From positions 186,001 through 250,000 of the forward strand of contig JAHLKF010000021.1 in the NCBI GenBank assembly GCA_025558075.1: a DNA stretch of 64,000 nucleotides, in the 5' to 3' direction. A program made the position numbers and the translations under genes. Of this stretch, positions 22,585 through 40,249 are shown one piece after another (within the stretch, counting starts at the first letter, position 1; each line of letters starts with the position of its first letter). Under the pieces are notes generated by a model. It was not told the origin of the DNA. It was given only the letters and a program-made list of their open reading frames with translations, and did not search any database. Source of the DNA: Gaertneriomyces semiglobifer (Eukaryota; Chytridiomycota; Chytridiomycetes; Spizellomycetales; Spizellomycetaceae).

Positions 22585-22633
22585 TGTCACAGTGCAGGGA
22601 GATACTTGTCAAGTATCTCCCTGCACTGTGACA
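22585..22633. repeat. Perfect 49-nt terminal palindrome, left end of element A
   Basis: Two 24-nt arms (TGTCACAGTGCAGGGAGATA... and its exact complement) flank a single central T. It sits exactly at the element tip, so each end could fold into a hairpin with a one-base loop. The identical structure in inverse orientation lies at 46764-46812. Confidence 0.95.
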
Positions 22634-23429
22634 ATGCCCGTTATCGGTAACGGTCCCTGTATAGCGGCCGTTACCGATAACGGGCCGTAGCGGCCGTTTT
22701 CGCTCACCGTAGTGTGGCGGCCGGTATTGATAACGGCCCCTGTGTAGCGGCCGTTACTGATAACCGCCACAACGGCCCTTACCATAGTTTACCGAGCCCC
22801 ACTTCCCCATTGACTCCACTTCGCTCCATAATTTATCGAGTGCGCCGCTGTGAAGTCTTTGACACTTGTCCCACTCCTGGAGCGTCTTCCCTGCTCATGC
22901 TCCTGGAGCAACGCACCCCAACCGCGTACCCCATCTTCTTATATAGACCTTTTCATTATCGATAATTCCCTATGCTTGCCGCGTATTCAACACATTCACC
23001 TTATCGACCAAACGCGCGCGTTTATCCATCTATTTCAACTGGCCCGTCGTATATATCTATACTTCTAGCCTTGTAGCCCTTGTAGCACCCGGTTTCCTTC
23101 CCTTTCAATTTCAATTTTCAAAAATGATTTTCAAAATTCAAATTTTAAAACAAATATATAAAATACTCTGAAATATAGGGCTACAACGGCTACACTTCTT
23201 CTCTTCATGTTTTTCTCTTCTTATCCCTATTCAAATGTTCCTTCCTTCTCTACATGTATCGAGTGTAGCCACCCAATGGCTACACTGGGCTACACAAGGC
23301 TACAATACAAAAATTGAAATGCCTACTGACAATTCTCAATCGCGCAACATGTTCTCAGTCAACGCTTATTACTATTAATGAAGTACAGTACATCTCACAT
23401 TCAGCCTCCTACTATTAATAAACTACCCC
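22585..23429 (+). repeat. Element A left terminal inverted repeat (845 bp)
   Basis: It pairs with 45968-46812 base for base in length, with only scattered substitutions. From the tip inward it holds the 49-nt palindrome, a block of GGCCGTTACCGATAACGG-like palindromic subrepeats (22634-22785), two CTCCTGGAG palindromes (~22872-22912), a TATATAG box near 22937, and the 240-bp GTAGCC-rich module (23066-23304). No gene is coded in it. Confidence 0.95.
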
Positions 23430-23500
23430 CACTTTTTGTCGATAAACTATATATTCATACACTTTATCGATTAATTACATTCTGTCTCCTTAGACTTTAC

Positions 23501-26500
23501 TTAGGCCAATGGCGCAATACGATATATGATCAACCGAGATGCTTGAGAGCCAGTAATCCCGCCCGATGAACTTGCGGATATAAAGCGAAGAATCATCTTG
23601 GTATCTGCTTCTACCACACAACATATAGAAGATCCTGTTACTTTCTGGCCGGCTACCATACTGTGTTTTCTTACATGATAACCATCCTCATAGTACACGG
23701 TGGCACCAGGGCTCATAAAACCAAAGTAACTATTGACAGATCCGGAACCTGATTGAAAACAATCTAGATCGAATTCAACCTTGTATATTCCCGGTAACTT
23801 AATGACGATGTCTTGCGAATTCGTTGAACAGTAAATGGTCTCACTCTCCATACCAAACGATGGTGTCCATTTGGTTATTAACTGATAGGCAGTACCATTC
23901 ACAGAGAACGATTGACTCGAATGTAATTGAAACATTCCATACGCTGGAGCGGTCAAACTGAGACCATTCACCTTTGCAGATGGAGCATCTATGATTTTAC
24001 GTGTGGTATTGGATCCATAGAATGTCAGTTTACCAATATGGGCATATGTTGAAGAAATAAGGTTACGGGCGATGAACCTAAATACTTTGAACATCTTCAT
24101 AGTGTAATTCTTGATCGGCACATATCGGTCTACTGAAGTGGAATTTTGATATATCGTATATGTCATTGTTCCAGAGGAGATCTCTGTCCAGTTGCTGCGG
24201 TCATCCGATCCACATATGGTGTAATTCTTAGGAAACATTGGCATTTCAGGTGTTCTGGCGGCAAATGAAAATGCATTGATAGCGATTGCTTCAGGCATCT
24301 CAATTTCAACCCATTCGCCTTTGATATTAGAACCATCTACAACAGTAATAACTGTACCTTGATACATATTCTGTTCTCCTCCGGAATATGTTGATGCAGA
24401 CCAATAAGAGTCATTAATCTCTAAGGAATTAGTGAAAGCCTTCCAGCCTGCGGACGTTCCATTCAAGTAACTACTTGCATTTGCAATATATCCTGCTGTA
24501 GTTGCACCGGTCAACTGTATCTGAGGGTATTTGATTGGATCCACAATATCATCTTTGAATGTGACATCGTTGTCGATTGAAAGGTCACCAGAACATATCA
24601 AGTTCTCGGTCAGGATCTCCTTTGTAGATAGCGTACCGTTGATCTGCACTGCTGTAGGAACACCATTGAAAATCAATCTATAAACGTCTGAGAACCCTCC
24701 ATTGTGGTCGACGGATTGCACAATGAGTCGAAGTATTTTGAATGACTTGTTTGATGAAACTGTAAAAGATAAGGTTTGTTCTGCATCGGCACCCCATATC
24801 GCTGTTGAAGACATCAGCATTGTGAACGTGGTTCCATCGTTAGATCCGGCAAGTACAATGTCTTTGATAAAACGTGATTGTCGAATAGAAATGTCAAAAG
24901 AGGTCAATTTCACATCAAGAGGCATTTCCAACTGCAACCACTCTCCACTTACACTTGTTGCATCAACTACCGTAACAGCAGACCCAATGTAGTTATATGG
25001 TGCAGTTGTGTTGTATTTTGAGTTTGCCGACATCCATGCCCAGTTGGTAGCATTGACATTGGTAAAAGCCATATAAGGTAAATATCCATTATTTGAACTA
25101 GCACTGGCTGTATACACACCATTCCCATATGGTCGAGCGGAAACTGTAGTCGCATTGCTTGTCAAATTTACAGGAGGAAATGCAACAATATCACTGTTGG
25201 TTCCAACGGACAGACATTGAGAAATATCGACGCAACCTGAATCATCAATCACAATACCGCCAGTTTCGGTCTTGGTTAGCAACCTCAATGCCCCTGCATA
25301 ACACTGAATCGTTCCAGTATTAATCCCACCATACACTCCTCGACCAGCGCTGTTAATATGCAGGTATAAGCCCTGCGTACCACCAGCACGCAGGTGCAAA
25401 GAAGTACATGAATTGGATGCTGCCGACTGGTTGTTCAACACATGGGCGAACGCAGTGTTGGAATTCTTTGTTGCCGTAAACGTGCCTCCTATCGAAATAT
25501 TCCCTGTTCCGGACATATTTCCCCCAACCGAAATTCCGCCTACAGTTGTCAAAGTATCAACGCTCACTGCAGGATCCAAGGAAAGAGTGTTATTACTGAA
25601 TAGTAGACCGCTTCCATAAGTAAGGGATGCTGGGGCATTAATTACATCAGTCGTATAATCAACCTTGTCCTTGTAAGCCAATCCTTTAAGTGCGGTTTTT
25701 GTTTCATAGATGGTCAGATCCGGTTTTTCTGAGACTTCAGTGATCCATGACACTGACGATTTTGAAGCGAGGGCGCCCAATGTTGGTTTTGATAGAATGT
25801 CATTCCAACTCAAAGTGTCCTTGTAAGCAAGAGCCTTGAGATTGGTTTTGACTTCAAAAGCGCTGAGATCTGACCCCAGAGATATTGTGCCTCCTGCTTT
25901 AACCAAACCAGTTCCAACCGTGAGGTACGATAAACTGTCAACATAAGTCTTGGTGGTCAAATCCGTCGGTTTATTTAGAATATCTGTTCCATTCCAATCC
26001 ACTGTATTCTTTGTCGATAAGGTTCCAAGAGAAGGTCGAGAGGTCACTTCTGTCCAGGCAATGCTGTTTTTTGCTGCCAATGTCCCAAGTGTAGGGCGTC
26101 CTGTTAACTCTGAATAGGACAAGGTATCTTTGAATCCCAATGCTTTGATGCTGCTTGTTTTTGCAAATGTCGTAAGATCGTCATTTAAGGACAACGTATT
26201 GCCCGTTTTGACAAGTCCTTGTCCGACATTGACGTAGTTGATGCTCTCTATATACGGAAGAATGTAGGACTCGTACGCTTGATAGATCATTGCAAGGTTC
26301 GGAACAGTTGAAGGGTGTTCTTGAAGGATCCCGCCTTGATTGATGAATCCGCTTTGCAGATGTCTATCATGCGTGAGGATAGCACTAGAAACGCGATCAT
26401 CATCTGTCCGTCGTAGTATGATATCTAGGTGACCCGGTGTTGTGATAGGGATTCCATTCTGGTCCCTTTCCAATATAGATCGTGTGAATCCTTCCTCGGT

Positions 26501-28771
26501 AACCTCAGTTTGAATTTCCTCTGATCAACGACGTCCCCACGAGTCGACGAAGGTCGTACGTTCCCCCCTGGAATCCCGGTTCTTAAAGATTGGAGGAACA
26601 CCGTTAAGGCATAGTCCACCACCACCACCACCACCTCCTCCACCACCTCCACCACCTCCACCACCTCCATCAATTTTCCCAGTATTTGTGAGATTGGTCG
26701 GGTCGATGGGGTCTGTGGGTGGTAATATCGGGTCTTCAAGGTCAGGTAGTCCTCCTGTCAATTCACCAGTTGTCCCTCCTCCTCCTCCGCCTCCTCCTCC
26801 ACCGCCACCTTCATCATCTCCTCCCCCTCCTCCCCCTTCTTCATCATCTCCACCATTGTACGTATCCTTCAAGGTACCCTCTGTTCCTTTGTTGGTCGGA
26901 TTGACTGGTGCAGTAGGTTTGGTCATGAGTGGACCGGTACCGTTGGTAATTGTAATTATGCCTGTAATCGGATCGGGCGGGCCAACAATTAGCCCGATTC
27001 CGATGACCCCACGAACAACTGGGAGAGACGTATAGGCTGTCAACGCAGCGTCAAGCCCAGTGACCTGCCCAGCCAATGATGTAGCGATTCCTTGCAACGA
27101 AGTAACATCTCCCTTCATCACGGCATTAGCAACCTGTATCGCCGATTGAGCAGTCTGGATTGTTCCAAGTAACTCGGTGGTTCCTGTCAAATCGGCTGCA
27201 AGGTTGATTAGATCACCCTGCATTTGCTGTTTTGCTGAGTCCAAGTTGTTGATGTTCCCTTTGTTCGTGTTGATATCACTCTCAAAGAGATCGCTCTTGG
27301 TTTCTTGCTCTGTCAATCGATTCTCAACCGCATCAATTTTGTTATCGAGTCGTACATCCTCATTCTCCAAGTCATTCAGTTTGTTATCCGTTTCTGTCTT
27401 GTTCTGATCAGTTTTTTCGTTAAGATCCGTCACTTTGTCATCCAGATTGTCAATTTGACTCTGAGGATTCAACACGGACACTTCATAACTGAAAGGATTG
27501 GTCTGAACAACAGTAACATTAGATGAACCCGAGATCACTGTTTTTCCAATGACTTGGTCGCCTTCTCTTCGAAGACTGCCTCCATATGTCAGTGTAGAAG
27601 ACACCACGTTGTTCGCAATAGATATCCCATCTCCTGAGGTATAGGGATCGACTGTCAACTTGCCATTCACCGCCTTCACCGAAGTGCCGTCCACGATGTT
27701 GGAAACATTCACTTCGAGTTGGTTCGACTCATTGATGTTGAGTGTCGTGTCATGATTCACCTTGATCAGTTTCCTCCCATTCGCGACTTCGGAGATATCT
27801 ATCGCTGAACCGGCTTGGGATTGATAAAGTTGATGCACATAGCCGGCAGTTGGTAATTGCCGTGGCTCGGTAATACTATAGTCAACCACTTCGGACTCGA
27901 ATTTTGGTGCTGTTAAGGTCTGCAATGTTTCGTTATAAGTAAAACGGTTCGAACTGTTCAAACCGCTCAATCCTCCATAATAAGGTATCTCATTCATACC
28001 TTTACTTCTTATCGCTAGTCTTGAACCCGTCTGCTGAAAATCATCACTGCAATTTAACTTTACTAACGTTCCATTCCCGATATACTCCTCCATGTCTCCA
28101 GGCAAATCCGGAATGTCGATCCAATCCCCCACACCTGGGAGGATCTCGTCCATTGCAGAGTACACTGAAATGGCTCCAATGCCTTTCGATAATTCTTTTT
28201 GATCGACTCCTAGTTTGCCATCCTTTACAACCAGTGGAGTCTCAATGTTCAAACGCACCCCGCCATCAACTTCTTCAAGAGGGGTCTCAAAGTTCTTATC
28301 GAAAGATTTTAGTTTTCCTTCGCTATCTATAGTAATAGTCGTATCGTCTGTCATCAATGACAACCCATGTTCCGAAGTATAGAACGGCGCGCCGTAATGC
28401 AGTCCAACTAGAGTCTCTTCCATCTGTTTATCGATCCACAGAGGTGCCTCGGCTACCAGAGGACCATTCTTTGATTGAAGATCATTCTCTGGACCAATCT
28501 CGAAATCCCTACTCGAAAACTTTAGGGAAACGTTTGCAGTCCCGTTTTCTACAATTGAAGAAATGGGTGCTTCGCTTGATATCGCGTTAACCTCGAGTGG
28601 ACCATATTTATTCTCGATCTGTTCCGCTCTCGCCACTTGGAATCCCTCTAGATTAACATTTTCGCCCATTGCAACGAGGCCATCCCCTGAAACAACTGCA
28701 CTTACAATATTGGTGTTTTGAAGCGTCCTTAAACCGCTTGCCGTTCTTGAATTTAATCCTGCCCCACTCAT
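23501..28771 (-). CDS. Giant receptor-binding fibre protein, split by one TGA
   Basis: Starting at the ATG at 28771 the frame runs 748 codons, meets one TGA (26525-26527), then continues in the same frame for 1,007 more codons to 23501. The N-terminal part carries a coiled coil ('DDKVTDLNEKTDQNK', ~430-530) and Gly runs separated by acidic patches just before the stop. Beyond it come shaft repeats ('LSYSELTGRPTLGTLAAKN', 'VTSRPSLGTLSTKN'), as in tail-fibre shafts. Then come two discoidin (F5/8C)-like domains (about nt 25170-24655 and 24530-24010) and a C-terminal C1q-like beta domain. Such domains bind sugars or surface proteins, so this is the likely host-attachment protein. A homologue starts in element B at 62613. 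Whether the TGA kills the gene or is read through is unknown. Confidence 0.85.
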
Positions 28772-28848
28772 GTTTATGTAAAAGGCTCTTCTTTACATAA
28801 CCAATGATATATTTTTTGTTGTAATTATGAACATCGAATGCTACCTTA

Positions 28849-28921
28849 TGCTCCCGGAATATGCTCCCGGAGTATGCTCCCGGAGTATGCTACCTTATAC
28901 TCCCGGAGTATGCTCCCCGAG
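28849..28921. promoter_or_regulatory. Cluster of CTCC[CG]GGAG palindromes between divergent genes
   Basis: Five near copies of ATGCTCCCGGAGT lie between the fibre gene (minus) and the receiver gene (plus). Related palindromes (CTCCTGGAG/CTCCAGGAG) recur in both terminal repeats, at 34925-34978 and at 40250-40323. A regulator-binding or boundary role is inferred. Confidence 0.5.
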
Positions 28922-28956
28922 AATTGTTATCCAATTATTTTTCTCCTCTTGAACAA

Positions 28957-29631
28957 ATGGAAGCCAGACGTCTTGATAATATCTTTAAACAACGCTATGA
29001 AGTCGCCGAGAGAAAGCGGTTAGACTTGGAAAAGCGTCTGGCTGCTCTAGAACAATACGTTTTACTTAGCACAAAAGAACAAGAACCGAATGTCGTTGAT
29101 CAAGACATTCTCGATGAACTAGAAAATGTTATCGACACGCTGACTACTATCTATGATAAGTTGAAAGGCAACCCGAGTGACATCCAGGAGGACTTGGAGC
29201 CGCCGATTGAAGCGACACAGGAGCCCCTCGAGAAAACACTCGACGGTAAGATACTTAACATTCTACTCGTTGAAGATTCGAAAATGTTGCAAGAGATCTT
29301 TAAAAGATGGTGGCAGAAAAAGGGCCACAATGTGTTTGTCGCCTCAAACGGGCAGGAGGCCGTTGAGGCGGTCAAAACCAGAAACTTCTCCATCATTTTT
29401 CTGGATATCGAAATGCCAATCAAAGATGGTTTAACTACCGCAAGGGAGATTCGAGCATACGAAATAGAAAAGGGTTCGATAACATCTGTTCCTATAATAG
29501 CCGTCTCAGGATACACACAAAAACAATATAAGGAAAAAGCACTCGAAAGCGGCTGCAACGCCTTTATTTCAAAAGACCAAGGTTACCAGTTCAATGACAT
29601 TTACAAGATTGTTCTAGACTACTGTGGCTAA
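28957..29631 (+). CDS. Response-regulator receiver protein with coiled-coil N-terminus
   Basis: I choose the ATG at 28957 because the open frame before it is made of the palindrome repeats. The 224-residue product has an N-terminal coiled coil (1-40), an acidic linker, and a full receiver domain (~99-224). Receiver landmarks are present: acidic pair E106-D107 ('LLVEDS'), phospho-acceptor D150 ('IIFLDIEMPIKDG'), the conserved Ser in 'AVSGYT' (184) and K206 ('FISKD'). Receivers accept phosphate from a histidine kinase; in fungi these kinases sense osmotic and oxidative stress. No output domain or kinase is encoded nearby, so it may tap or block the host phosphorelay. Capture from a host hybrid kinase is the likely origin. 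Confidence 0.9.
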   Translation: MEARRLDNIFKQRYEVAERKRLDLEKRLAALEQYVLLSTKEQEPNVVDQDILDELENVIDTLTTIYDKLKGNPSDIQEDLEPPIEATQEPLEKTLDGKILNILLVEDSKMLQEIFKRWWQKKGHNVFVASNGQEAVEAVKTRNFSIIFLDIEMPIKDGLTTAREIRAYEIEKGSITSVPIIAVSGYTQKQYKEKALESGCNAFISKDQGYQFNDIYKIVLDYCG

Positions 29632-29704
29632 AGCCGCATCCGTCCGCTTGTCAGTGACTCATCGATAAATTTCCTGTGCCCGGTGACTCATCGATAAGTT
29701 TCGG

Positions 29705-30097
29705 TTACTGCACTTCCTCTAATAACTCTACAGTTTTTGACAAGATCTCGATCTTATCTTTTGTGGCCCGGGACATCGTATCATAAAAATCACGGTCTTC
29801 ATATAAACGATCTATTTCATCTTCTGTTGGGTCACAATCGCAAAACTCGTCTCCGCAGTTCTCGGCATGAATGATTCCACCGGCACTTCCCTGTGCTTCG
29901 CTATCGAAGTTGTCAAACATATCCTTGTAGTTCACTAAATCACTTTTCAGTTTCTTTAAGTACTGATGTTTCACCGCACTCAAAACCTCCTTATCCGCCT
30001 TTGTCAATAGATTCAGGAGATCTTGCAGCATTTCAATGCCGCTAAAACACCACTCTGAGTGTTCGAGTTCTACAATTTTTGCTTTTATGGCATCCAT
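29705..30097 (-). CDS. Small acidic helical protein, unknown
   Basis: The 130-residue protein has an ATG at 30097. It is mostly helical with heptad-like Leu spacing ('LQDLLNLLTKADKEVLSAVKHQYLKKLKSDL'). A short Cys/His patch ('GIIHAENCGDEFCDCDPTED') could bind metal. A TATATAAG box lies upstream in the motif shared with the next gene. No homologue was seen in the visible part of element B. Confidence 0.6.
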   Translation of the reverse strand: MDAIKAKIVELEHSEWCFSGIEMLQDLLNLLTKADKEVLSAVKHQYLKKLKSDLVNYKDMFDNFDSEAQGSAGGIIHAENCGDEFCDCDPTEDEIDRLYEDRDFYDTMSRATKDKIEILSKTVELLEEVQ

Positions 30098-30137
30098 TCC
30101 TTATGTTCTTGTCTTTTCTGGATATGATATCCCCTTT

Positions 30138-30151
30138 GTCCTTATATAGGC
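30138..30151 (-). promoter_or_regulatory. TATA-type promoter of the 130-residue gene
   Basis: Read on the minus strand it is GCCTATATAAGGAC, preceded by ATTACATAACATGAAGT. The same arrangement recurs at 30581-30594 before the next minus-strand gene, so the two genes probably share timing. Confidence 0.6.
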
Positions 30152-30241
30152 ACTTCATGTTATGTAATTAGTTACATCTTATTACATCGTTTTTACATCG
30201 GTCTAGTTTTTGTATTTGTATTTTGAGGAATGAATCTATCC

Positions 30242-30273
30242 CAGTTCTCTGACATTTACAAAATCGTTCTAGA
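30242..30273 (+). other. 32-bp echo of the receiver gene's 3' end
   Basis: This stretch matches 29587-29618, the region coding 'QFNDIYKIVLD', at 28 of 32 positions and would encode 'QFSDIYKIVLD'. It is probably the stub of a second receiver gene, or of a recombination event that moved the small genes here. Confidence 0.6.
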
Positions 30274-30278
30274 TTTGC

Positions 30279-30521
30279 TTAATAAGGCTTCTGTACGTTC
30301 ATCTTAACCGCCTCTTTAACCAATTTGGCTTCCATGGTACGAATGTTTGTCACGTAAATGGAACTACAATGCTTGCAATCTTTGATGCAATCCAACATCT
30401 CCCTCTTGAAGTTTTCGATCGTGTTCCAATAGTAGTCCAAAACTTTCGTGTTCTCCTCAATAACTATTTTCCATATATCGTCCACAATTGCTCTAGGCAC
30501 GCTTGTTGATGATCCTGCCAT
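30279..30521 (-). CDS. Small helical protein, unknown
   Basis: I choose the ATG at 30521 ('MAGSSTSVPRAIVDDIWKIV'), giving 80 residues; the open frame begins three codons earlier with GTG. The protein is helical with three cysteines ('DCIKDCKHC'). The upstream box GCCTATATAAGGAC (30581-30594) matches that of the neighbouring minus-strand gene. Function unknown. Confidence 0.5.
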   Translation of the reverse strand: MAGSSTSVPRAIVDDIWKIVIEENTKVLDYYWNTIENFKREMLDCIKDCKHCSSIYVTNIRTMEAKLVKEAVKMNVQKPY

Positions 30522-30580
30522 CTTCTCCACGATGTTCCTTGTTACTTGATGAAAAACGCCCCCCCAGCAGTCTTCGGCAT

Positions 30581-30594
30581 GTCCTTATATAGGC
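30581..30594 (-). promoter_or_regulatory. TATA-type promoter of the 80-residue gene
   Basis: It has the same GCCTATATAAGGAC core and the same upstream ACATAACAT as at 30138. It lies about 60 bp before the ATG at 30521. Confidence 0.6.
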
Positions 30595-30623
30595 GGTTTA
30601 TGTTATGTAATGTTCCACATCGG

Positions 30624-30866
30624 TTGTAGCCTTGTAGCCCTTGTAGCGGCTGATTTCCTTCTCTTTCAATTTCAATTTTCAAAAACGATTTTCAAAATTG
30701 AAATTTTAAAACAAATATATAAAAAATACTCTGAAATAGGGGCTACAAGGGCTACACTTCTTCTCTTCATGTTTTTGTCTATATATCCGTATTAAATGTT
30801 CCTTTGTTCTCTCCATGTATGGAGTGTAGCCACCAAAAGGCTACAACAGGCTACAGAGGGCTACAG
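30624..30866 (+). repeat. Internal copy of the 240-bp GTAGCC module
   Basis: It matches the module in the left terminal repeat (23066-23304) in the same orientation: iterated TTGTAGCC, then an AT-rich core of nested AATTTCAATTTTCAAAA-type palindromes, then iterated GGCTACA. It lies just before the primase-helicase gene; an inverted copy lies at 34480-34722. Confidence 0.9.
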
Positions 30867-30960
30867 TTTAGATGCAAAATTTGCATCAATTTGATCCAAA
30901 AAAAAACATATATAAACAGTAGAGCCCCGGTAGTAAATATATATATCATCAGAAAAAAAC

Positions 30961-33456
30961 ATGCCTCAATCAGAACTATTTCGCTTGGCCAAAAAGATCA
31001 AACGCCACAATCCTTCTTTCAATCCGATCCCGGCTTATGTGGAGACGAAGCGCCCTATCGGTAAATGGAGTGGCAGCACTTATCAATTCGAAAGTGACTT
31101 TCCCAAACGTGAATGGCTTGATCCTGAATGTAATCTCGGTTTACTAGTCGCAAACGACTTTATCATTATCGATGTTGATGCTAAACCTCCCGCTTCGAAA
31201 ACTAATAAGAAAATATACTCTGTGAATACTGGTGTCGCCGACTTTGCAGCCCTTGTTGCATTAAACGAACCTCTTCCACCTACTTTGACTGTGAACACAC
31301 CTTCTGGTGGTAAACATTATTACTTTGCGTTTACTGGCCGCGAGGGAGAACAATCCATTAAGAACTGGACATTGTGCATGACATACAATGGCAGACTCAT
31401 CGCTGTTGATGTCCGTGTTAAAGGTGGTTACGTGATGATTCCTCCTTCTAAAAAGGGAGTCAAGCGGTACTCGTGGGAAACCAACGATGATTATAGAACC
31501 GCAATGGCACCCTTGCCCCAATGGATTATGAACAATATCCACGCAACGCTTGAAAAACATCCTTTTAAGCCCAATTTCGAAGCACAAGAATTTACTTGCA
31601 ACCCCAGTGTCAACGAAGATATATCTGATGCTGATGTTGCTCTCTTCAAGGATAGCGAGTATTGGCAACCGTGTTTTTCAATTAAGGCTTCACCGGACCC
31701 CTATGGACGGTACATTGTAACGGCATCGCAACCTTACAATTGCGGTATCTGTGAACGCGAACATGTCAATAACACCAACCATCCTTTCCTTGTAAGAAAC
31801 AATGGTACACTCAGATTTGTATGCCGTCCTGGTAAAGGCTTTAACAGAGTGATCGACCGTGACTATTTAAAGATGTGGAACGATTTCAAGCCCGCGTATA
31901 TCAAGAATCTTGTCACTAATGGGGACATCACTAATCGTGCTGTGTCTGCAAGCCTTCAACAAGAATTAAAGGACAACATGTTTCCGACCTTGAAACCAAA
32001 CATGTGGTTGATGTTTGATGAGGAAACCGGTATCTGGAGAGAAGAACACAAAGATGTGCTTTTACGCCCTCTTTTCGACAAGTATGTCAAACACTTGAGT
32101 AACTTATCCTTTATCTGCTCTGGACTCAATTCAGAGGACGATGATATCTGGGATCAACACCTCAGCACTTGCAAATCGTTGATGTATTCATGTTCCATGG
32201 TTTCAAAGAAAAAGGATCACAGCCAGGCACTATTTGAATTGATTCGAGATAATCGCAAAGAAAGGTTTTTCAACAAGAGTAAGCATTTGCTCCATTGTTC
32301 CAATGGCGTTGTGGATCTTAACACCGGTGAATTTAGAAAGCCAAAGGCGACTGATTATTCTACCATGTCTACCAATATCCCCTATCTGGAGTACGATAAG
32401 CACCCACAGGAGAAGAGAGACCTTGTCGATAAGTTTCTAGACGACTTTACTGTAGGCGATCAAGAGGTCAAGCACTATCTTCTCAAGGTCCTTGCATCTG
32501 TTCTCAGTGGTAACAATTTCGACCAACAGTTTTACATGTTACATGGAGAGGGGGCTAATGCAAAATCCTTGCTCATTCGCATGCTCAAGGCTGCGTTAGG
32601 CAACTATGCTGCTCCTATTCCTTCTGCTCAAGTCACTAAGCCTTCAATGGACGCACAAAGCGCATCCCCTGCATTGGTGGCACTTCAATACATTCGGGCA
32701 GCGTGTTTGACAGAACTTAACGACCGTGTGCTCTTCCCAGAATTTCTCAAAATGTTGGCAGGAGGTGACTCCATTGCTGGAAGGCAATTATTTCAAGAAC
32801 AAAAGACGTTGGACTTGTGGTGTAAGATCATCATTGCAGTGAACGATCTACCAGAGATTAGGGATAGGACTCCCGGGTTCTGGCGGAAACTTGTTTTCAT
32901 TCCATGCAGAGCATCTTTCAGTATGAATCCGGATCCCAGCAAGCCTGAACAGAAACAAATTGTGGAGGGCTTTGAGGAACACCTTCTCCAGTGTGCTGAT
33001 ACCTTTCTTGCTTTATTAGTCAAGGTATATCTTACCTCTTACCAGACGGAAGGTGTCAAGGACAACGCAAAGCCAGAATGCATCAAGCGACTTGTTCTTG
33101 AGTATCAAGAATCTCAGGATATTCCTTTAGCGTTCATGAATACTATGATCGCTGAAGGGACTGACGATGCTGTTTTGACAACAAAGGCACTAGATACAGC
33201 GTTCAATGAATACCTTCGCGACAAAGGTATCACTAAAAACGTTGCACTTGTGCGGCATTTGTATGAAAAAATCGATAAGAAGTATCCACCTTCAAACAGT
33301 CGTAGACAGATTAGATTGGGTGAGAAAAACATCAGAGGTTGGAGAGGTATCTATATCTGGCCAGATTATGAAGGGTTTGAAGAGGAAGAAGAACATGTAG
33401 CAGAAGAGGTAGATCGTGAGTTCTTAAGGGGCCAGTGGGTGTCTCGGGTATTATAA
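30961..33456 (+). CDS. Prim-Pol / SF3 (D5-like) helicase replication protein
   Basis: The ATG at 30961 starts an 831-residue protein. The N-terminal primase-polymerase domain shows 'IIIDVDAKP' (metal-binding D71, D73), 'TPSGGKHYYF' (114-120, the S-x-H type motif) and 'GGYVMIPPS'. A linker follows, with Cys-containing 'CGICEREH' and 'CRPGKGF'. The C-terminal SF3 helicase has a P-loop 'LHGEGANAKSLL' (~525-536), Walker B 'ACLTELND' and motif C 'WCKIIIAVNDLPEIRDRTPGFWRK'. The family unwinds and primes DNA in many viruses and plasmids. The residue before the P-loop lysine is Ala, not Gly. With no PolB in the element, this is the central replication enzyme. It is bracketed by inverted 240-bp modules. 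Confidence 0.92.
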   Translation: MPQSELFRLAKKIKRHNPSFNPIPAYVETKRPIGKWSGSTYQFESDFPKREWLDPECNLGLLVANDFIIIDVDAKPPASKTNKKIYSVNTGVADFAALVALNEPLPPTLTVNTPSGGKHYYFAFTGREGEQSIKNWTLCMTYNGRLIAVDVRVKGGYVMIPPSKKGVKRYSWETNDDYRTAMAPLPQWIMNNIHATLEKHPFKPNFEAQEFTCNPSVNEDISDADVALFKDSEYWQPCFSIKASPDPYGRYIVTASQPYNCGICEREHVNNTNHPFLVRNNGTLRFVCRPGKGFNRVIDRDYLKMWNDFKPAYIKNLVTNGDITNRAVSASLQQELKDNMFPTLKPNMWLMFDEETGIWREEHKDVLLRPLFDKYVKHLSNLSFICSGLNSEDDDIWDQHLSTCKSLMYSCSMVSKKKDHSQALFELIRDNRKERFFNKSKHLLHCSNGVVDLNTGEFRKPKATDYSTMSTNIPYLEYDKHPQEKRDLVDKFLDDFTVGDQEVKHYLLKVLASVLSGNNFDQQFYMLHGEGANAKSLLIRMLKAALGNYAAPIPSAQVTKPSMDAQSASPALVALQYIRAACLTELNDRVLFPEFLKMLAGGDSIAGRQLFQEQKTLDLWCKIIIAVNDLPEIRDRTPGFWRKLVFIPCRASFSMNPDPSKPEQKQIVEGFEEHLLQCADTFLALLVKVYLTSYQTEGVKDNAKPECIKRLVLEYQESQDIPLAFMNTMIAEGTDDAVLTTKALDTAFNEYLRDKGITKNVALVRHLYEKIDKKYPPSNSRRQIRLGEKNIRGWRGIYIWPDYEGFEEEEEHVAEEVDREFLRGQWVSRVL

Positions 33457-33586
33457 AACATGTTGCATAACTATGAAAACGTTTTTACGTAATAGCACTC
33501 TACTTTAACTGTAACTGATTAATATTTAAACTATATAAAATACTATATTTAAAGATAAGTGTAGTATTTTTGTATATCACTGTAGA

Positions 33587-33787
33587 ATGCATAGTGAGTA
33601 CGAGTACACTGCTACTGTCAATCGCTTTGGAACTATCAATACTGTTCAAGCACCATCTATACGTGCTTTGGCTAAAAAGTTGGATCTCTCCCATTTAACC
33701 GTAAGGAAATTAGTATATAACGACGCCAATAGTCACTGGAGCCCGTACATTTCTGTTGAACGAAAACCGAAACAAAAAAGTATTTAA
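33587..33787 (+). CDS. Small helix-turn-helix protein
   Basis: The 66-residue product from the ATG at 33587 contains 'SIRALAKKLDLSHLTVRKLVYND' (25-47), which fits a helix-turn-helix with a Lys/Arg-rich recognition helix, then a basic tail. It ends 47 bp before the next gene's ATG, and both lie inside the replication cassette. A role as a transcription or origin-binding regulator is inferred. Confidence 0.55.
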   Translation: MHSEYEYTATVNRFGTINTVQAPSIRALAKKLDLSHLTVRKLVYNDANSHWSPYISVERKPKQKSI

Positions 33788-33833
33788 ACGGATATCGAAT
33801 ATCAAATATAGAAGAGTAGTAAATAAACATACT

Positions 33834-34460
33834 ATGGGCTATCCAGAAATATTCATTGAAGAACTTACCAAGGCTTCAGTGGCTGATAACTATGACGATG
33901 CTATAATGGAATGGAAAGTCGAGAGTTATGAGCATAGCAAAGCAAATCGCTGTATTTGTTCACACGAGATAGTCCATAACTGCTATGTCACAAGCGTGTT
34001 GACGGGAAAACAACTGATCATAGGGAACTGTTGTATTAACAAGTTCTTTCCGGAAGAGGAAGTTGCAGAAGCACTACGACTTCGGCGTGAATGTCATAAC
34101 AAAACCCGACAGTGTTTGCTTTGTAACAAACGGTATAGAAAGGAGGGTGCTTTGAACGACACCATGTGCGACTATTGTTTTTCTAATAATTTGCAATGCA
34201 TTGATTGTAACCAGTATTACGATTGTTCCGATGTCAAAAAACGAACATGGTGTGACCGCTGTCCACCATGTTGGCAAAAATTCAAGGGGCTACCTGTTAC
34301 GTATCGCCGCTTTGTCATGTTACCGTCTAGAAGAAAAACCAAGGATTGCGAAATATGTAACAAACAAATACCGCGTTTGCCTTTATGGAGTACATATTGT
34401 GGAAATTGTTACAGCAAGTCTCGGAGGAAGGCAAATGCAAACAAAATGTTTGCGGACTAG
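33834..34460 (+). CDS. Multi-zinc-finger protein
   Basis: I choose the ATG at 33834 (208 residues). The first finger-like block reads 'CICSHEIVHNCYVTSVLTGKQLIIGNCCINKFF', a pattern found in phage and large-DNA-virus proteins. Then come four CxxC pairs ('CLLCNKR', 'CDYC', 'CIDC', 'CDRCPPC') and a last pair of pairs ('CEICNKQ', 'CGNC'). The very basic C-terminus suggests nucleic-acid binding. It is the last gene of the cassette and is followed directly by the inverted module at 34480. Confidence 0.75.
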   Translation: MGYPEIFIEELTKASVADNYDDAIMEWKVESYEHSKANRCICSHEIVHNCYVTSVLTGKQLIIGNCCINKFFPEEEVAEALRLRRECHNKTRQCLLCNKRYRKEGALNDTMCDYCFSNNLQCIDCNQYYDCSDVKKRTWCDRCPPCWQKFKGLPVTYRRFVMLPSRRKTKDCEICNKQIPRLPLWSTYCGNCYSKSRRKANANKMFAD

Positions 34461-34479
34461 AAGAGTTCTTCAAAGTCAT

Positions 34480-34722
34480 TTGTAGCCTTGTGTAGCCCTG
34501 TGTAGCCTTTTCGTGGCTACACTCCATAACTGGAGTGAGGAATCGTCTTTAAATAACATGTTATATAGATAATTTTATGGAAAGAAAAAGTGTAGCCCTT
34601 GTAGCCATCATTTCAGAGTGTTTTATATATTTTGAAAAAAATTTCAATTTTGAAAATCGTTTTTGAAAATTGAAATTGAAAGAGAAGGAAAACGGGTGCT
34701 ACAAGGGCTACAAGGCTACAAA
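34480..34722 (-). repeat. Inverted internal copy of the 240-bp GTAGCC module
   Basis: This is the complement of the copy at 30624-30866. Together they enclose the primase-helicase, the HTH protein and the zinc protein. The matching copy in the right terminal repeat is at 46093-46332. Confidence 0.9.
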
Positions 34723-34924
34723 ACACACTGAGGCATTTTTCCGGTAAGCGCTAAAAAGTATTTTTAGACGATGAATGGAATCGGAGGGCGGCGGCGGTTT
34801 CTTTTCTTTTTTTGAAAAGGAAAGTTTTTTCTGAAGGACATTGAGTTCACGCAAAAATATAAAAGGGTGGTGTTATCGATGTCTTCCCTCCTCTGTTATC
34901 AATTCAAAAACACTTTCTTCGACC

Positions 34925-34978
34925 ACTCCTGGAGCATCTTCCCTGCACTCCTGGAGCATCTTCCCTGCACTCTGGAGC
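34925..34978. promoter_or_regulatory. CTCCTGGAG palindrome cluster
   Basis: Three copies of CACTCCTGGAGCATCTTCCCTG (the last shortened to TCTGGAG) lie between a TATAAAAG box (34858) and the start codon at 35028, probably in the 5' leader. Their likely role is regulatory. Confidence 0.5.
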
Positions 34979-35027
34979 AAGTTATCTCAACAATCTTTTT
35001 CTGCGACCATCTTACGCCTTTTCACAA

Positions 35028-35825
35028 ATGGCAGACAAAAAACCCTTAGCCCGTCTTGCCAGCCAACAGGTTTTACTCATGACCGGTAAAGGCACTAAGG
35101 AAGACACTGCCATTTCTAGACGTATTGCAACCAACGGCTACACGGACAAGGACCTTTTGTGGGAGATGGTAGAATTCGTCAAAGTGGAAGACAAGGTGAA
35201 CGCCGAACTTGCTAGTAGTGCTCGCGCTCTCAACGATCGCATTGCCTTGCATAATTTCAGACTTGACAACATTCCGACTGATGAATTCATAGAGATGTAT
35301 GTAAGCGACGACGGCTTTAAAAAATTCACCGACCGTTATCATCATCCTGGTGTCGTGCATAAACTTGGAAATATGTACGGACTCAAGAATTTAATCCGGA
35401 ACTCGGGCTACAGTCAGTTCCCCCAAGGTGCCCCAGGCAACAGTGGCGGGTACCACACACCTTCCCAACGCCCATTACTTCCGGACCCGATCAACAGTGG
35501 CTCCTACAACACCGTCCAACCCAGAGCATTGCTTCCGCCTCCTGTAGAGGGGGCATCCACGGTTGAAATTCCAACTTCCCCTGTGTCACCGGATTCAACA
35601 TCTTCAACACCTTCAACACCTCAAAGTGCAAGACGCAGATCCGAGAATGATGCTGGTCAGCCTCCTGCTAAACGGAGGCAAACGAAGTGTGGAAATTGCA
35701 ATAAAGAGGGACATAGGAAGAACCGTTGCGAAGACCCGTGTTCCAAATGTAATCAAAAACATCCGGGAAAACCGTGCCCACCATCGGAAATGAACCAAGC
35801 GTCCGCATCAACAGACGCTGAGTAG
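35028..35825 (+). CDS. Zinc-knuckle (CCHC) protein with disordered linker
   Basis: The ATG at 35028 gives 265 residues. A helical N-terminal domain (1-130) is followed by a Pro/Ser/Thr-rich linker, a basic stretch 'PPAKRRQTK' that could be a nuclear signal, and a retroviral-type zinc knuckle 'CGNCNKEGHRKNRC' (CX2CX4HX4C). A further 'CSKCNQKHPGKPC' follows. The order helical domain, linker, knuckle recalls Gag-like nucleocapsid proteins. It likely binds single-stranded nucleic acid, either as a genome-packaging or a replication accessory protein. No homologue was recognised in element B. Confidence 0.75.
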   Translation: MADKKPLARLASQQVLLMTGKGTKEDTAISRRIATNGYTDKDLLWEMVEFVKVEDKVNAELASSARALNDRIALHNFRLDNIPTDEFIEMYVSDDGFKKFTDRYHHPGVVHKLGNMYGLKNLIRNSGYSQFPQGAPGNSGGYHTPSQRPLLPDPINSGSYNTVQPRALLPPPVEGASTVEIPTSPVSPDSTSSTPSTPQSARRRSENDAGQPPAKRRQTKCGNCNKEGHRKNRCEDPCSKCNQKHPGKPCPPSEMNQASASTDAE

Positions 35826-35880
35826 TGTAGTTATCATGTGTTGCATTATCATGTGTTGTGTGTTTCATGTGTTGTGTTTT

Positions 35881-36114
35881 TCATGCATGTGTTGCATTGT
35901 ATTTTTCAATACAATTCTCATCGTCCGAGTCAGGTAGCAGTACGAAATCTTTGACTTCGCGGCGTCTATTCCAGCATTCGAGGCAATACGGTCTAGATCT
36001 TAATTTTGGAATAATCGTTCCGCAATCCTTGCATGTTGTGCAGCGTTCAGGGATAATAAGGTTTCCTTCAGAGTCATACTGCGGTGTATAAACGGGAAAT
36101 GTTTCTTTGGCCAT
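35881..36114 (-). CDS. Small zinc-ribbon protein
   Basis: The 77-residue protein from the ATG at 36114 has 'CTTCKDCG' and 'YCLECWNRRR', giving two CxxC-type pairs spaced 17 residues apart, then an acidic tail ('PDSDDENC'). This fits a treble-clef or ribbon finger. It may regulate transcription. Confidence 0.65.
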   Translation of the reverse strand: MAKETFPVYTPQYDSEGNLIIPERCTTCKDCGTIIPKLRSRPYCLECWNRRREVKDFVLLPDSDDENCIEKYNATHA

Positions 36115-36220
36115 GTTGTGATATCTTTAATTAGGAAACAAGGGAATAAATTGGTTGTGCGGTTGAACCAGAATGTATAAGTTCTGTGCCAATGTTTAAA
36201 TAGAGTTATTTGTATTAGAA

Positions 36221-36547
36221 ATGGCTTCGAAATGGTGTTCGCGTCCTCAGAACATGGGGATATCTGACATTGCAGATAATATAATTCGATATGCTATGCG
36301 GTTAACTCCAGCGAAACGAAAAGAGTTCTCCGCAGATATCGAACAGCATAGCGAAGCGTTTGGAGAAGAAGTCATAAAGGCACTTAAGGCTTGCGTTTTA
36401 CTTGATGAGTTATCTGAAAAGCACCCTGCTACAAAGAAGAGGGAAGTCACAAAGAAGAAAGCCTCGAAACCGATACCAAAGGAAACGAGCACACCGAGCG
36501 GACCACCGAGCATTGTATTTGACAAGGAGGATGAGTCAGACGATTAA
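36221..36547 (+). CDS. Small protein with basic/acidic tail, unknown
   Basis: The 108-residue protein from the ATG at 36221 has a helical N-terminal half ('SDIADNIIRYAMRLTPAKRKEFSADIEQH'), then a Lys-rich segment ('KKREVTKKKASKP') and an acidic end ('DKEDESDD'). A charged tail of this kind suggests DNA or chromatin contact. Function unknown. Confidence 0.6.
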   Translation: MASKWCSRPQNMGISDIADNIIRYAMRLTPAKRKEFSADIEQHSEAFGEEVIKALKACVLLDELSEKHPATKKREVTKKKASKPIPKETSTPSGPPSIVFDKEDESDD

Positions 36548-36870
36548 GTGGAGTGCGTATAAATAAAAGTGTTTAGATTTCTATGACGGATTGAGTATTC
36601 GTCACAGAAATCTCTGTGGAGCCTGCTTATTAGTCGGAAGTGCTCATAGCCGGTTACTTGTTGGTTTATGGTCGGCTTAACGTAGTAACAAAAACATGCC
36701 GAGAGAAAACAATCTGTTAGTAAAAAAGCATCAAAGATGTCCTTGATGACAAGGACCACAGATTGCAAATCCTTTATCAGCACGAGCATACTGATTTTGG
36801 GATCTGGGGGAGCACTGAAGGTGCTCCCCAATCATATGCTTCGAAAAAAAGATTTGTCCCTAAACGCAAC
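36548..36870. other. Spacer before the capsid gene
   Basis: No supported gene. A plus-strand frame at 36718-36880 reads protein-like ('HTDFGIWGSTEGAPQSY') but has no start codon and runs into the capsid gene's antisense strand. It may be a decayed small gene. A short AAATCTCTGTG-type inverted repeat lies near 36580-36625. Confidence 0.35.
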
Positions 36871-38106
36871 CTATATAACAGCAACGACCCCACCAATGGA
36901 GAGAGTAACATTCTCGCTGTAATTAACAAGAAGTCTCACCGATACCGGCACTGGGTTTTCATGAATTGTGGCAATACGCAGGAGACTGTCTGTCCCTACG
37001 AACGACAAAGCGGCACTCGAAGACTCGGTGCGGTCTTGAAAACTCCAGCCAAATGAGAACTGCTTCGAGTCATAATCAGCGAATGCGATATCCATATCGC
37101 CGAGTCTGTCAAAGTTATTCTGGGATAGTTGGGATACCAGCAATGTCTGATTATCGGTTGGTGAATGTGTAAAGCCGGTTGTCCCACTGGGGATTGTCAA
37201 AGCACCAATAAGTAGACGCCATTCCCTGAGATCCCAAGAGGAATAGTTCAAAGCAGCATCTTTGGTAGTGTCCGTGTTTGCTGTATCGACAAACATGGCA
37301 TCGAACGCTTGAAGGGAGCGCACTCCTGACATGTGGAGAATGAAAGTGTTCCGCTTGCCACGCGAAGCCGCCACCTCAGTTTGGGTTGTTCTGGTGTAAT
37401 CGTAGTAGATGCTCTTGCCGTCAGCAATGGCTCGAGTGACATTCACGACCCTCTGCGGGTTCGGAGTGACATATGGCATTAGGAGACGAATGTTGGTAAC
37501 ACGGATTTCGTTCACATTGCCACTGGGGAATACGGAGGCAGGATCAGCAAGGACGATGCTGAACTCGAGGGCCTGATTCGGAAGGGACCAAACATGGAAA
37601 TACTGATCAGTGTTGGGATGACAGAATCCTACCCACGGGTGTGTGTTCATAGAAACAGTTGCTCGAGTGCCGAATACATTATCGTTCGAGTAACCGCTAA
37701 GTTGTCTCAGCAATTTCTTCTGGCCGACCGGCAGGTTCTTGTAGACACTGTTCAAGTACGCCGGGTAGTTATCAATCTTCTCAACGATCTCACCACCGGC
37801 TCTGATAGTCAAAGACTGAATGATGGATTCGAGGCCGAGATAAGTGTTCTTAATACCAGCACCAGGAGTCACAGCGGTTCCGTTGTTATAAGCGGAGATA
37901 TCCATAGACAGGACCATTCTCTTAAGGTCAAAAGAGGTCTGGTTGGAATCACATACAATACGGATGGGTGTCAGATTGCGGTTCTTTGAAGTATAGTCGG
38001 CTTGACCGATTGGAGAGAAGGAATGTACACCTTCTCCTCTAGGGTCAGTGAATGGCCGAGCAAACGTTTGAGTATTTACCAACCAATTCTTAGGGATTTC
38101 AGACAT
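36871..38106 (-). CDS. Major capsid protein (double-jelly-roll type)
   Basis: The ATG at 38106 gives 411 residues. The sequence is beta-rich and shares ordered landmarks with the element B capsid protein: 'GGEIVEKIDNY' against 'SGKIAESIDNY', 'DYTRTTQT' against 'YDYVATTQT', 'LREWRLLIGAL' against 'LKSWRYQLGGW', and 'FSFGWSFQ...ALSFVGTD' against 'FTLRYSFQ...ALNLIGTD'. Length and position beside the penton-like gene and ATPase fit Polinton-like virus capsid proteins, whose trimers form the icosahedral shell. The fold assignment rests on these cues; a structure prediction would settle it. Confidence 0.82.
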   Translation of the reverse strand: MSEIPKNWLVNTQTFARPFTDPRGEGVHSFSPIGQADYTSKNRNLTPIRIVCDSNQTSFDLKRMVLSMDISAYNNGTAVTPGAGIKNTYLGLESIIQSLTIRAGGEIVEKIDNYPAYLNSVYKNLPVGQKKLLRQLSGYSNDNVFGTRATVSMNTHPWVGFCHPNTDQYFHVWSLPNQALEFSIVLADPASVFPSGNVNEIRVTNIRLLMPYVTPNPQRVVNVTRAIADGKSIYYDYTRTTQTEVAASRGKRNTFILHMSGVRSLQAFDAMFVDTANTDTTKDAALNYSSWDLREWRLLIGALTIPSGTTGFTHSPTDNQTLLVSQLSQNNFDRLGDMDIAFADYDSKQFSFGWSFQDRTESSSAALSFVGTDSLLRIATIHENPVPVSVRLLVNYSENVTLSIGGVVAVI

Positions 38107-38153
38107 TATGTGAGATTCAAGTATGGTTTAAGAACTTGTATATAAAAAAAAAT

Positions 38154-38726
38154 TCATCCGAATATGCCCCCATAATCATCAGTTTCATTATTCGTATATT
38201 CGGATGTGTCGAAATTCACAAATGTATTCTTAAGCGCTCTGGCACATGGTTCATTAGAAGCAACTTTCTTTGGCTGTTGTTTTGGTTTGTTCCTTGCTTT
38301 TTCCGTTACTTCTCTCCAGTAAGTCTCGTCTGCCTTTTTCTTTTCCAATGCCAGCCGTTTCTTCTCTTCACGAAGAGCGCGTTTCTTTTCGCGTTCCTCT
38401 TTAAGTATCTTTTTGGCATCTTCGACACGCTGCTTTTCTGCTGCTATCCGACGCTCCTCAGCCCTCTTCTGTTGCATGGAGCGGAGTTGTTCTGCACGTG
38501 CCTTTTGTGCCTTGGTGATGGCTTTTTGCTGCTTTTCAGAGAGAACCTTTCGTGGCTTATTTTTTGCTGGTTCAGGTGCAGGTGGTGCAGGTTCAGGTGT
38601 AGGCTGTGGTGCAGGCCTTTGACCAGCATCTTGAACCGGTTGTTGAACAGGCTGTTGTTCAACGACAGGAACCTGTACAATTTCAGGTTCCGCACTCGAA
38701 ATATGTTCGACTTCTTCTGCTGACAT
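38154..38726 (-). CDS. Putative scaffold or internal capsid protein
   Basis: The 190-residue protein has a Pro/Gln-rich N-terminus ('QPVQQPVQDAGQRPAPQPTPEP'), a long Lys/Glu-rich single helix ('KQQKAITKAQKARAEQ' to 'KKADETYWREV'), and a short tail ending 'YGGIFG'. It lies directly upstream of the capsid gene on the same strand. Element B has the same layout (57849-58352), including a 'EKQKAALQKAQAAR' match and an 'VIFG' tail. Conserved position and coiled-coil character fit a scaffolding protein whose tail binds the capsid; this is inference. Confidence 0.65.
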   Translation of the reverse strand: MSAEEVEHISSAEPEIVQVPVVEQQPVQQPVQDAGQRPAPQPTPEPAPPAPEPAKNKPRKVLSEKQQKAITKAQKARAEQLRSMQQKRAEERRIAAEKQRVEDAKKILKEEREKKRALREEKKRLALEKKKADETYWREVTEKARNKPKQQPKKVASNEPCARALKNTFVNFDTSEYTNNETDDYGGIFG

Positions 38727-38755
38727 GTTGGTTTATATGATAGTTTATAAAATTT

Positions 38756-39481
38756 TCAATCCAAATTGTCGTTGATATCGTCAGAAATGACAAAACGCAC
38801 AGTTAATGGACTATTTAAGGACAATTCATTGCCGGATATACTGTCGATAAGGTGGAACTCTATCTTGGAAATCACATCGTCGACTGGAAGATACGGACCT
38901 GCGCTATTATCAAAGACAACAACGTCTCCAAAGTTATCGGGTATCATGGTTGCCACCACCAATTGCTCTCCCTCATTAAAGTCGCTGAGGAACTGCACAC
39001 CGCGTACAGAAATGTTGGATGTCAAGAGAATGGGATATGATCCTGATAGATCTACAGGATTCTTCATTGTTATCGACTTGTAGTAACCGGAATCCTGAGT
39101 TCTAGAGGAACCCATCAAGCGATATGCAGATGTTCCTCTTCCGGCGTGAAGAATTTTGAATGTCTTGGTGCCAGTGGTCGATATGGTTAGCCTTCTTGTT
39201 ACGTAGTTGTAGGTCACATCATATGTTTGTGATCCAGCCGAGTTCAGAGCATCTCGAATAGCGGCCGGAAAGTTTGATATCGTGTAGTTACCTGCAGGCA
39301 AGGAGGCAATCTTTGGAGTAGTGTCCGATTCTTCGATAATTGCAACCTTGTTATTGGTTTCATTGATGAGATCATAGTCTTGAATGAAGGAAACACTTAG
39401 GATCTTGAGATACTCGACCTTTCTTGGAGGTATGGCAAAGGATCTTGATTTCAGGCTGCAGTATGTGTATTCGTAGAGCAT
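38756..39481 (-). CDS. Minor capsid (penton-like, single jelly roll) protein
   Basis: I choose the ATG at 39481 (241 residues). It aligns along its length with 55728-56477 of element B: 'KILSVSFIQDYDLINETNNKVAIIEE' against 'RIVSVSFLQNWDSTNETNNQIAFVEQ', then 'PAGNYTISNF' against 'PGSYTVVSI', 'TYNYVTRRLTISTTGTKTFKIL' against 'SYDDVSKRLRIYTTGSKDFKIL'. Size and all-beta pattern fit the penton protein at fivefold vertices. It diverges from the ATPase gene across only 44 bp. Confidence 0.78.
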   Translation of the reverse strand: MLYEYTYCSLKSRSFAIPPRKVEYLKILSVSFIQDYDLINETNNKVAIIEESDTTPKIASLPAGNYTISNFPAAIRDALNSAGSQTYDVTYNYVTRRLTISTTGTKTFKILHAGRGTSAYRLMGSSRTQDSGYYKSITMKNPVDLSGSYPILLTSNISVRGVQFLSDFNEGEQLVVATMIPDNFGDVVVFDNSAGPYLPVDDVISKIEFHLIDSISGNELSLNSPLTVRFVISDDINDNLD

Positions 39482-39525
39482 CACTTGATTTCTTCTATAC
39501 TTAATGGTAATAAGGAGAGAAAAAA

Positions 39526-40239
39526 ATGAAGAACTTCAAGCCCAAAGCAATATATCCCAAGAATGGGAGCAAAGACGATCCTCGAGTGCCCGTGCAATTA
39601 GCAAGTCCGCCGTTATGTACTACATTAGTCGCTCCACGGAAAAGTGGCAAAAGTGCCCTTGTTTGTGGTTTGATAGATGATGTATATGGCAAAGTGTTCG
39701 ACGAGGTTATCATCATGTCGGATACTGTTCTCTTTGACAAATCCATTCAAGAACTTGCACGAATAACGAAGCACAAGCACATCTACTTTACTGACGACGT
39801 TTCCAATGATTCCATCAAGGAAATCGTAGAGAAACAGAAAGCGACAGGCTCACAGAAAAGCGTTCTCCTCTACATAGACAATGCAGCAGACTCTGCACGT
39901 TCAAAGGATCTCAGTCGAGAGTTGGATCGTTTATACACAAAGGCACGACACTTTAACATTTCGATAATTGTATGTTGTCAAAGTATCACGTCGCAACTCA
40001 GTCGCAAGCAAAAGAATTGCTCGACAGAATGGATTGTTTTCAATAACAATGCAGAGGACATGAAACAATTGGCCAAAGTCCTGTCAACAGCCTATGCGAA
40101 TGAAAAACAAGTTCATGAGTATCTGGTTGAATGCACAAAGGAGCGATACGCATTCTGCTACATCAATCTGGCAAAGTCGACCGCGAAGGAGATTTATCGA
40201 TATGCAACTAATGCGGACGGCTTTCAGGATTATTTCTAA
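39526..40239 (+). CDS. Genome-packaging ATPase (FtsK/HerA-A32 type)
   Basis: The 237-residue enzyme from the ATG at 39526 has a P-loop 'APRKSGKSAL' (36-45) and Walker B 'VLLYIDNAAD' (113-122), followed by 'SIIVCCQSITSQL', the sensor strand with Gln typical of A32-like packaging ATPases. It would pump DNA into the capsid. The homologue in element B (54978-55691) keeps all motifs. The pair of divergent penton and ATPase genes is kept in both elements. Confidence 0.9.
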   Translation: MKNFKPKAIYPKNGSKDDPRVPVQLASPPLCTTLVAPRKSGKSALVCGLIDDVYGKVFDEVIIMSDTVLFDKSIQELARITKHKHIYFTDDVSNDSIKEIVEKQKATGSQKSVLLYIDNAADSARSKDLSRELDRLYTKARHFNISIIVCCQSITSQLSRKQKNCSTEWIVFNNNAEDMKQLAKVLSTAYANEKQVHEYLVECTKERYAFCYINLAKSTAKEIYRYATNADGFQDYF

Positions 40240-40249
40240 TTGTTGACGA

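Follow-up and report, generated by a model that had tools for sequence, protein, structure and literature searches.

The window, that is, the whole stretch of 64,000 nucleotides analyzed here, corresponds to positions 186001-250000 of contig C21 in a genome of 20.86 Mb and 66 contigs, and it holds an integrated element of virus type (element 1) in which a gene for a stand-alone receiver (response-regulator) protein lies between a fibre-like gene and the replication gene (Table 1). The first-pass annotation had placed the receiver gene in such an element, and the terminal inverted repeats, the target duplication, the A32-type ATPase, the rve integrase and the Prim-Pol/D5 gene bear this out. The last of these is the replication gene of element 1, whereas Pfam showed no protein-primed PolB among 11 of its proteins and five smaller ones, so that the element is not a Polinton proper; its gene content points instead to a Polinton-like element, in which the capsid genes are candidates only. 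The major capsid candidate has no family match and a poor AlphaFold (AF2) model (pLDDT 36), the penton candidate has no family match and only chance-level matches in the PDB, and the possible tyrosine recombinase has no family match and a best PDB match at E 0.3. The fibre-like protein next to the receiver gene matches no Pfam family of its own above cut-off; its paralogue shows a sub-threshold Adeno_shaft match. Rfam at gathering thresholds gave no match in 20-64 kb of the window. On the right, element 1 is directly adjoined by a second element of another type (about 46800-64000), the integrase of which (60586-61833) bears a C-terminal chromodomain. Also beside element 1, at 17684-21466, is an open frame of 1260 aa that may be a transposon; its start resembles a zinc finger by eye, and Pfam gave no match.

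Table 1. Features of the receiver locus and of element 1, in window coordinates unless a contig is named
Feature	Position	Strand	Basis or remark
Stand-alone receiver (response-regulator) gene	28957..29631	+	224 aa; PF00072, landmarks, C35 copy supporting start, AF2 model
Receiver domain, residues 100-224, D150 as phosphorylation site	29254..29628	+	Pfam, landmarks, AF2 model
N-terminal predicted helices, residues 2-41 and 49-70	28960..29166	+	AF2 model
Polinton-like element 1, 24.2 kb	22585..46812	.	TG..CA ends, terminal inverted repeats, target duplication
Left terminal inverted repeat	about 22585..23429	+	845 bp; 99% complementary to right repeat
Right terminal inverted repeat	about 45968..46812	-	845 bp; 99% complementary to left repeat
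5-bp target duplication CCGTG	22580-22584 and 46813-46817		Both element flanks
Large protein with F5/8 type C (sugar-binding) domains, probable fibre/adhesin	23501..26473	-	PF00754 E 8e-13
Fibre-like protein, divergent from receiver gene	26525..28771	-	Paralogue of 62613-63491
Prim-Pol / D5 primase-helicase	30961..33456	+	PF09250 E 7e-19, PF08706 E 9e-11
Major capsid protein candidate	36871..38106	-	Inferred from gene order and size
Minor capsid (penton) candidate	38756..39484	-	Inferred from position
A32-type packaging ATPase	39526..40239	+	PF04665 E 2e-7, over cut-off
rve-type integrase	42251..43237	+	PF00665 E 1e-11
Possible tyrosine recombinase, by eye only	44315..45961	+	26% identical to 51656-53185 of element 2
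TGCTCCCGGAGTA-type dyad array between fibre and receiver genes	28849..28923	.
Dyads, TGCTCCNGGAGYA and near forms	22872-22910, 28849-28923, 34924-34958, 40252-40300, 46487-46525
Cut receiver gene and C5 cytosine DNA methylase in sister element	L042:1-1524 (L042 = C6:694053-697235)

The receiver protein and its active site

The receiver gene is part of an open frame of 256 aa (28861-29631), residues 134-240 of which match the Response_reg profile (PF00072) with 79.3 bits (E 3e-22), above the curated cut-off of 30.2 bits. Most of the upstream extension, which reaches back to 28861, falls in a 13-bp tandem repeat (28847-28921), and the alignment with the divergent copy on C35 begins at the Met at 28957, which is therefore the likely start. 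In the 224-aa numbering from this Met, the landmarks E106-D107, D150, S184 and K206 are where the first-pass annotation had put them, and all five conserved PF00072 residues (two acids, Asp, Ser/Thr, Lys) are present. Its description of the receiver as complete goes slightly too far: in C21, C24, C45 and C35 alike, K206 is followed by Asp207, the usual Pro with its cis peptide being absent, and two extra residues lengthen the beta5-alpha5 loop relative to four aligned host receivers. The Lys-Pro cis bond is presented as a hallmark of the receiver fold, in which Pro keeps Lys positioned (available text of PMC9981736). Catalysis could thus be weakened, and this is the main chemical doubt. With this reservation the protein is still classed as a receiver, because the profile and the five catalytic residues define the family and the Pro is usual, not required. 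The C35 copy is identical at the 15 active-site and neighbor positions checked, the five catalytic residues being unchanged even there. In the residue-position logic set out in the accessible part of PMC8510515, the neighbors are D+2 Glu, T+1 Gly, T+2 Tyr, K-3 Phe and K+1 Asp, all of which C35 retains. Between C21 and C35, 3 of 33 positions of the HPt-facing surface have changed versus 17 of 93 elsewhere, a greater conservation that is not significant (p 0.28).

The AF2 model, built on an alignment of the window protein with 4 of the 5 prokaryotic receivers found, places a (beta-alpha)5 receiver behind two helices (mean pLDDT 76; blocks of 72-94 from residue 101 onward, and ten-residue blocks of 59-79 in the helices). 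Foldseek matched this model to GacS D1, SLN1 and SSK1. The coiled-coil label for the N-terminal part is a prediction; a count found no His in residues 1-97, and basic-zipper spacing was not seen by eye in the helices when a DNA-binding role was considered. By Pfam the receiver protein has no kinase, HPt or known output domain, in agreement with the earlier description as regards kinase and output domain.

Sister copies, selection and origin

A protein search of the same genome gave 18 matches, of which those on C21, C45 and C24 are full-length, intact frames, the C35 copy (74% identity) contains one TGA stop, and a remnant on C6 retains residues 1-61 only; the 13 weaker matches (27-41% identity) are other receivers. 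The receiver gene occupies the same place in sister elements. C21 and C6 have terminal inverted repeats of the element-1 type at both ends, C45 and C24 at one end, C24 beginning inside the element and the C45 copy ending within the last gene. On C6, a C5 cytosine DNA methylase (PF00145, E 7e-41) takes the receiver slot next to the fibre gene, and no Prim-Pol/D5 gene of the element-1 type was found in that element. The C35 element is a mosaic: the arm with the F5/8, fibre and receiver genes shares its stretch with genes for ATPase, penton, capsid and integrase that are more similar to those of element 2, and there is additionally a capsid candidate closer to element 1. Conservation in sister elements had been named in advance as support for a functional viral gene, and it is found in part: D150 and K206 are kept under purifying selection, but a stop codon interrupts one of the five copies and the domain is missing from another. 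The receiver can thus be dispensed with, at least as far as persistence in the genome is concerned.

Our estimates of selection come from single pairs compared by a simple method, the copies being mosaic with unequal divergence, and they suggest strong constraint on the receiver without ranking it among genes. Between C21 and C24, the 224 codons carry 25 synonymous and 3 non-synonymous changes (dN/dS 0.028), with 19 and 2, respectively, in the receiver part alone. Such a ratio of changes, together with three intact frames, argues that the gene is not there by chance. The C45 and C24 genes differ by 26 synonymous and 2 non-synonymous changes, and those of C21 and C45 by a single non-synonymous change, for which no ratio is obtainable. 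The receiver part has a dN/dS of 0.064 between C21 and C35 (bootstrap 0.026-0.136, stop codon left out), the silent sites of the N-terminal part being too diverged for a ratio; the fibre gene of the same pair gave 0.195. For other genes of C21 and C24, dN/dS was 0.111 in the integrase, 0.156 in helicase residues 113-831, 0.159 in the capsid candidate, 0.19 in the ATPase, 0.209 in the penton candidate and 0.216 in ORF 33756, and the receiver differs from the first five of these, pooled, with a Fisher p of 0.002. On the other hand, the ATPase reaches 0.02 between C21 and C45 (saturated dS, 2.4), an equally low ratio, so that the receiver is not uniquely constrained; in this pair the capsid candidate gave no ratio and a 130-aa ORF gave 0.69 on four changes.

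The closest host receiver is the second receiver of a kinase gene on C9, at 40% identity over 105 aligned positions. Two trees of 22 rows each (viral copies, host receivers and bacterial receivers) group the viral copies with most host receivers, apart from two first-position host receivers and two bacterial ones, with support of 93/91 in one tree and 60/57 in the other; neither gives the viral receiver a supported sister. Close host capture was rejected on the identity of the best host receiver and the lack of a supported sister, and a recent bacterial origin is not supported, the five prokaryotic loci found being 27-37% identical. Receivers of hybrid kinases rank first in NCBIfam (top three) and in the PDB by sequence and by structure, and among predicted viral proteins (BFVD) the best matches are kinases and receivers of giant viruses and phaeoviruses. 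Scans of IMG/VR with the receiver, the capsid candidate, capsid, integrase and penton alignments and the helicase found no relatives by a pattern method that detects close ones only, and 60 of 50,697 phage records had a weak receiver match, all below 60% identity. No close relative was thus seen outside this genome in IMG/VR or the phage records, a weak test of absence elsewhere.

Host phosphorelay and possible roles of the receiver

The host is a fungus by its gene content, which includes a Ypd1-type HPt, Ssk1 and hybrid kinases, so that a phosphate donor for the viral receiver exists. The genome contains one HPt match (best matches Chaetomium HPt and yeast Ypd1), 18 HisKA matches and 31 receiver matches, exons and four element copies counted. 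A receiver on C54 has SSK1 as its best PDB match (2.4e-25), and a frame on C17 reads as the end of a kinase followed by a receiver, Rim15-like by eye. No HisKA or HPt match lies within about 20 kb of the capsid-candidate matches in genome coordinates. According to the available text of PMC11224324, a fungal receiver uses alpha1 and the loops surrounding its active site to contact HPt, and a fungal HPt takes phosphate from several receivers with low affinity, yet with some specificity, RcsB having given no transfer. Phosphorylation of the viral receiver by the host HPt is likely by inference.

We consider it about evenly balanced whether the gene functions for a Polinton-like virus as a stand-alone response regulator that receives its phosphate from the host phosphorelay. 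Such a mechanism would start from what the sequence shows, a receiver whose phosphorylation site is retained, under strong purifying selection, wherever the copy is intact. As neither a kinase nor an HPt was recognized in element 1, its phosphate would be drawn from the host Ypd1-type HPt, which in fungi of this kind would serve many hybrid kinases and accept varied receivers. The N-terminal helices may dimerize the protein or dock it on a partner, and the phosphorylation state would be read through protein contact rather than through a DNA-binding or enzyme domain. The effect could be competition with host Ssk1 for phosphate or, alternatively, a report of host stress to the virus; decoy and sensor or switch agree equally well with the sequence.

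The placement of palindromic motifs bears on this choice. The window contains 12 copies of the dyad core CTCCNGGAG, against an expected 0.74, and every one of them lies within element 1. The longer dyad TGCTCCNGGAGYA was located at 37 genomic places (46 strand rows), and its reversed-sequence control gave 0 and 1 matches. The dyads stand in both inverted repeats, in the gap that separates the receiver gene from the fibre gene, and in front of the genes at 35028 and 40727, and on C45 and C24 additionally before the integrase; in this arrangement they look like an operator set. Of the 37 places, 30 are in the C21, C24, C45 and C6 elements, and two more adjoin a capsid-candidate fragment on C20. 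Because dyads mostly of this element type adjoin the receiver gene and others, we lean slightly to a viral switch, in which phosphorylation by the host HPt would alter pairing or partner binding of the receiver and gate viral expression or reactivation under stress. The hybrid histidine kinases of phaeoviruses have likewise been suggested to be possible players in viral activation (available text of PMC12993054). The link between dyads and receiver appears to be one of position, however, and the C35 element has a receiver with no exact dyad core in 30 kb; taken by itself, the switch is only a tentative possibility. Its fuller form, in which phosphorylation of the receiver by the host's only HPt would decide, together with virus-specific palindromic operators, when the element wakes, is speculative and distinctly improbable.

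The first-pass annotation had proposed a signaling decoy that could draw phosphate from the host stress phosphorelay or redirect it. As a decoy only, the receiver would be a phosphate sink that rivals host Ssk1 for HPt~P and shifts HOG output during infection, its own phosphorylation state being uninformative. The lack of an output domain agrees with this, as do the presence of a host Ssk1-type receiver, the Sln1 and Ssk1 receivers among the best PDB matches of the viral one, and the single host HPt match, which is the donor that a decoy would need and a bottleneck at which it could act. A pure sink would, however, require high expression and would leave the N-terminal helices unexplained, and these have changed less than the linker between C21 and C35 (18 of 70 versus 18 of 27 positions, gaps counted as changes). 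A decoy and nothing else is doubtful.

The receiver fold might also serve as a docking module, for example on a particle or fibre, with its Asp chemistry unused. The missing Pro after K206 would suit such a role, as would the fact that in C35 the gene has moved, together with the fibre genes, to another core. All five catalytic residues are unchanged even in C35, however, although a mere scaffold would have no use for them, and independence from phosphorylation appears unlikely. That a host gene foreign to the element was caught by chance in one insertion is scarcely credible, since many receivers in the host genome could have been its source but none is close, and the gene keeps the same place in sister elements as one uninterrupted frame under strong purifying selection.

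A phosphorelay-fed regulator of the kind preferred here would have partial counterparts. The claim that receivers lie outside Polinton-like gene sets agrees with the literature text searched, in which, preprints and most subscription papers aside, no receiver is described for Polinton-like elements. The receiver is real, conserved, virus-borne and unusual for such elements. Receivers in eukaryotic DNA viruses are not new, being found in giant viruses and phaeoviruses, and they are known in phages too. Giant viruses and phaeoviruses are far larger than element 1. Some of their receiver folds are in short proteins: the 26 BFVD matches at E <=0.001, with 16-26% identity over the aligned part, include proteins of Fadolivirus (206 aa), Tupanvirus (174 aa), Klosneuvirus (192 aa) and Hokovirus (122 aa), as well as of EsV-1 and Feldmannia virus; unlike the present protein, most of the eukaryotic-virus matches are named histidine kinases. 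A sensor histidine kinase is also named for mirusviruses (available text of PMC10132985). A Polinton-like virus integrated in Spizellomyces punctatus and others in oomycetes are reported in PMC7805220, where some integrated elements, as far as its main text goes, resemble element 1 in that they are bounded by inverted repeats, have 5-7 bp of target sequence duplicated, and carry tyrosine recombinase or rve integrases; "response regulator" and "kinase" each occur 0 times in that main text. The Rec-only proteins Spo0F, CpdR, MrrA and SdrG similarly use a single receiver as an intermediary or contact switch, but they are bacterial, and no comparable N-terminal helices are mentioned in the available text of PMC9981736. 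Closest in design are the unclassified fungal response regulators, lone receivers for which action via protein contact or a phosphorelay has been suggested; in the accessible part of PMC8510515 they are counted as host genes, whereas the present receiver is inside a Polinton-like element. Some of them might be viral, and if the stress-gated switch is true, those without output domains would in part be viral genes.

That the receiver is nearly unchanged in sister copies is a hint that the element either monitors host stress signaling or disturbs it. Should the host HPt phosphorylate the receiver, a virus of about 24 kb would plug directly into a fungal stress pathway, HOG, which is the target of the fungicide fludioxonil (available text of PMC10512271). 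In that case the gene would also offer a direct route to asking how Polinton-like viruses, once integrated, time their exit, with D150 as a single testable residue.

Polinton-like elements across the genome

The genome holds 41 capsid-candidate and 31 fibre matches, fragments included, a heavy Polinton-like load. The receiver gene or its remnant is found at 5 places, compared with these 41 capsid-candidate matches, and upstream of 8 other fibre matches a stretch of 2.3-2.5 kb holds no receiver; most elements in the genome appear to be without the gene. The receiver was accordingly rejected as a marker of all elements, as the gene or remnant stands beside 5 of the 31 fibre matches. Two different capsid candidates with starts about 3.4 kb apart occur at C35:96558-111137 and likewise on C19, C30, C34, C39 and C47; the copies on the latter five contigs have identical scores, and their first candidate contains one in-frame TAG.
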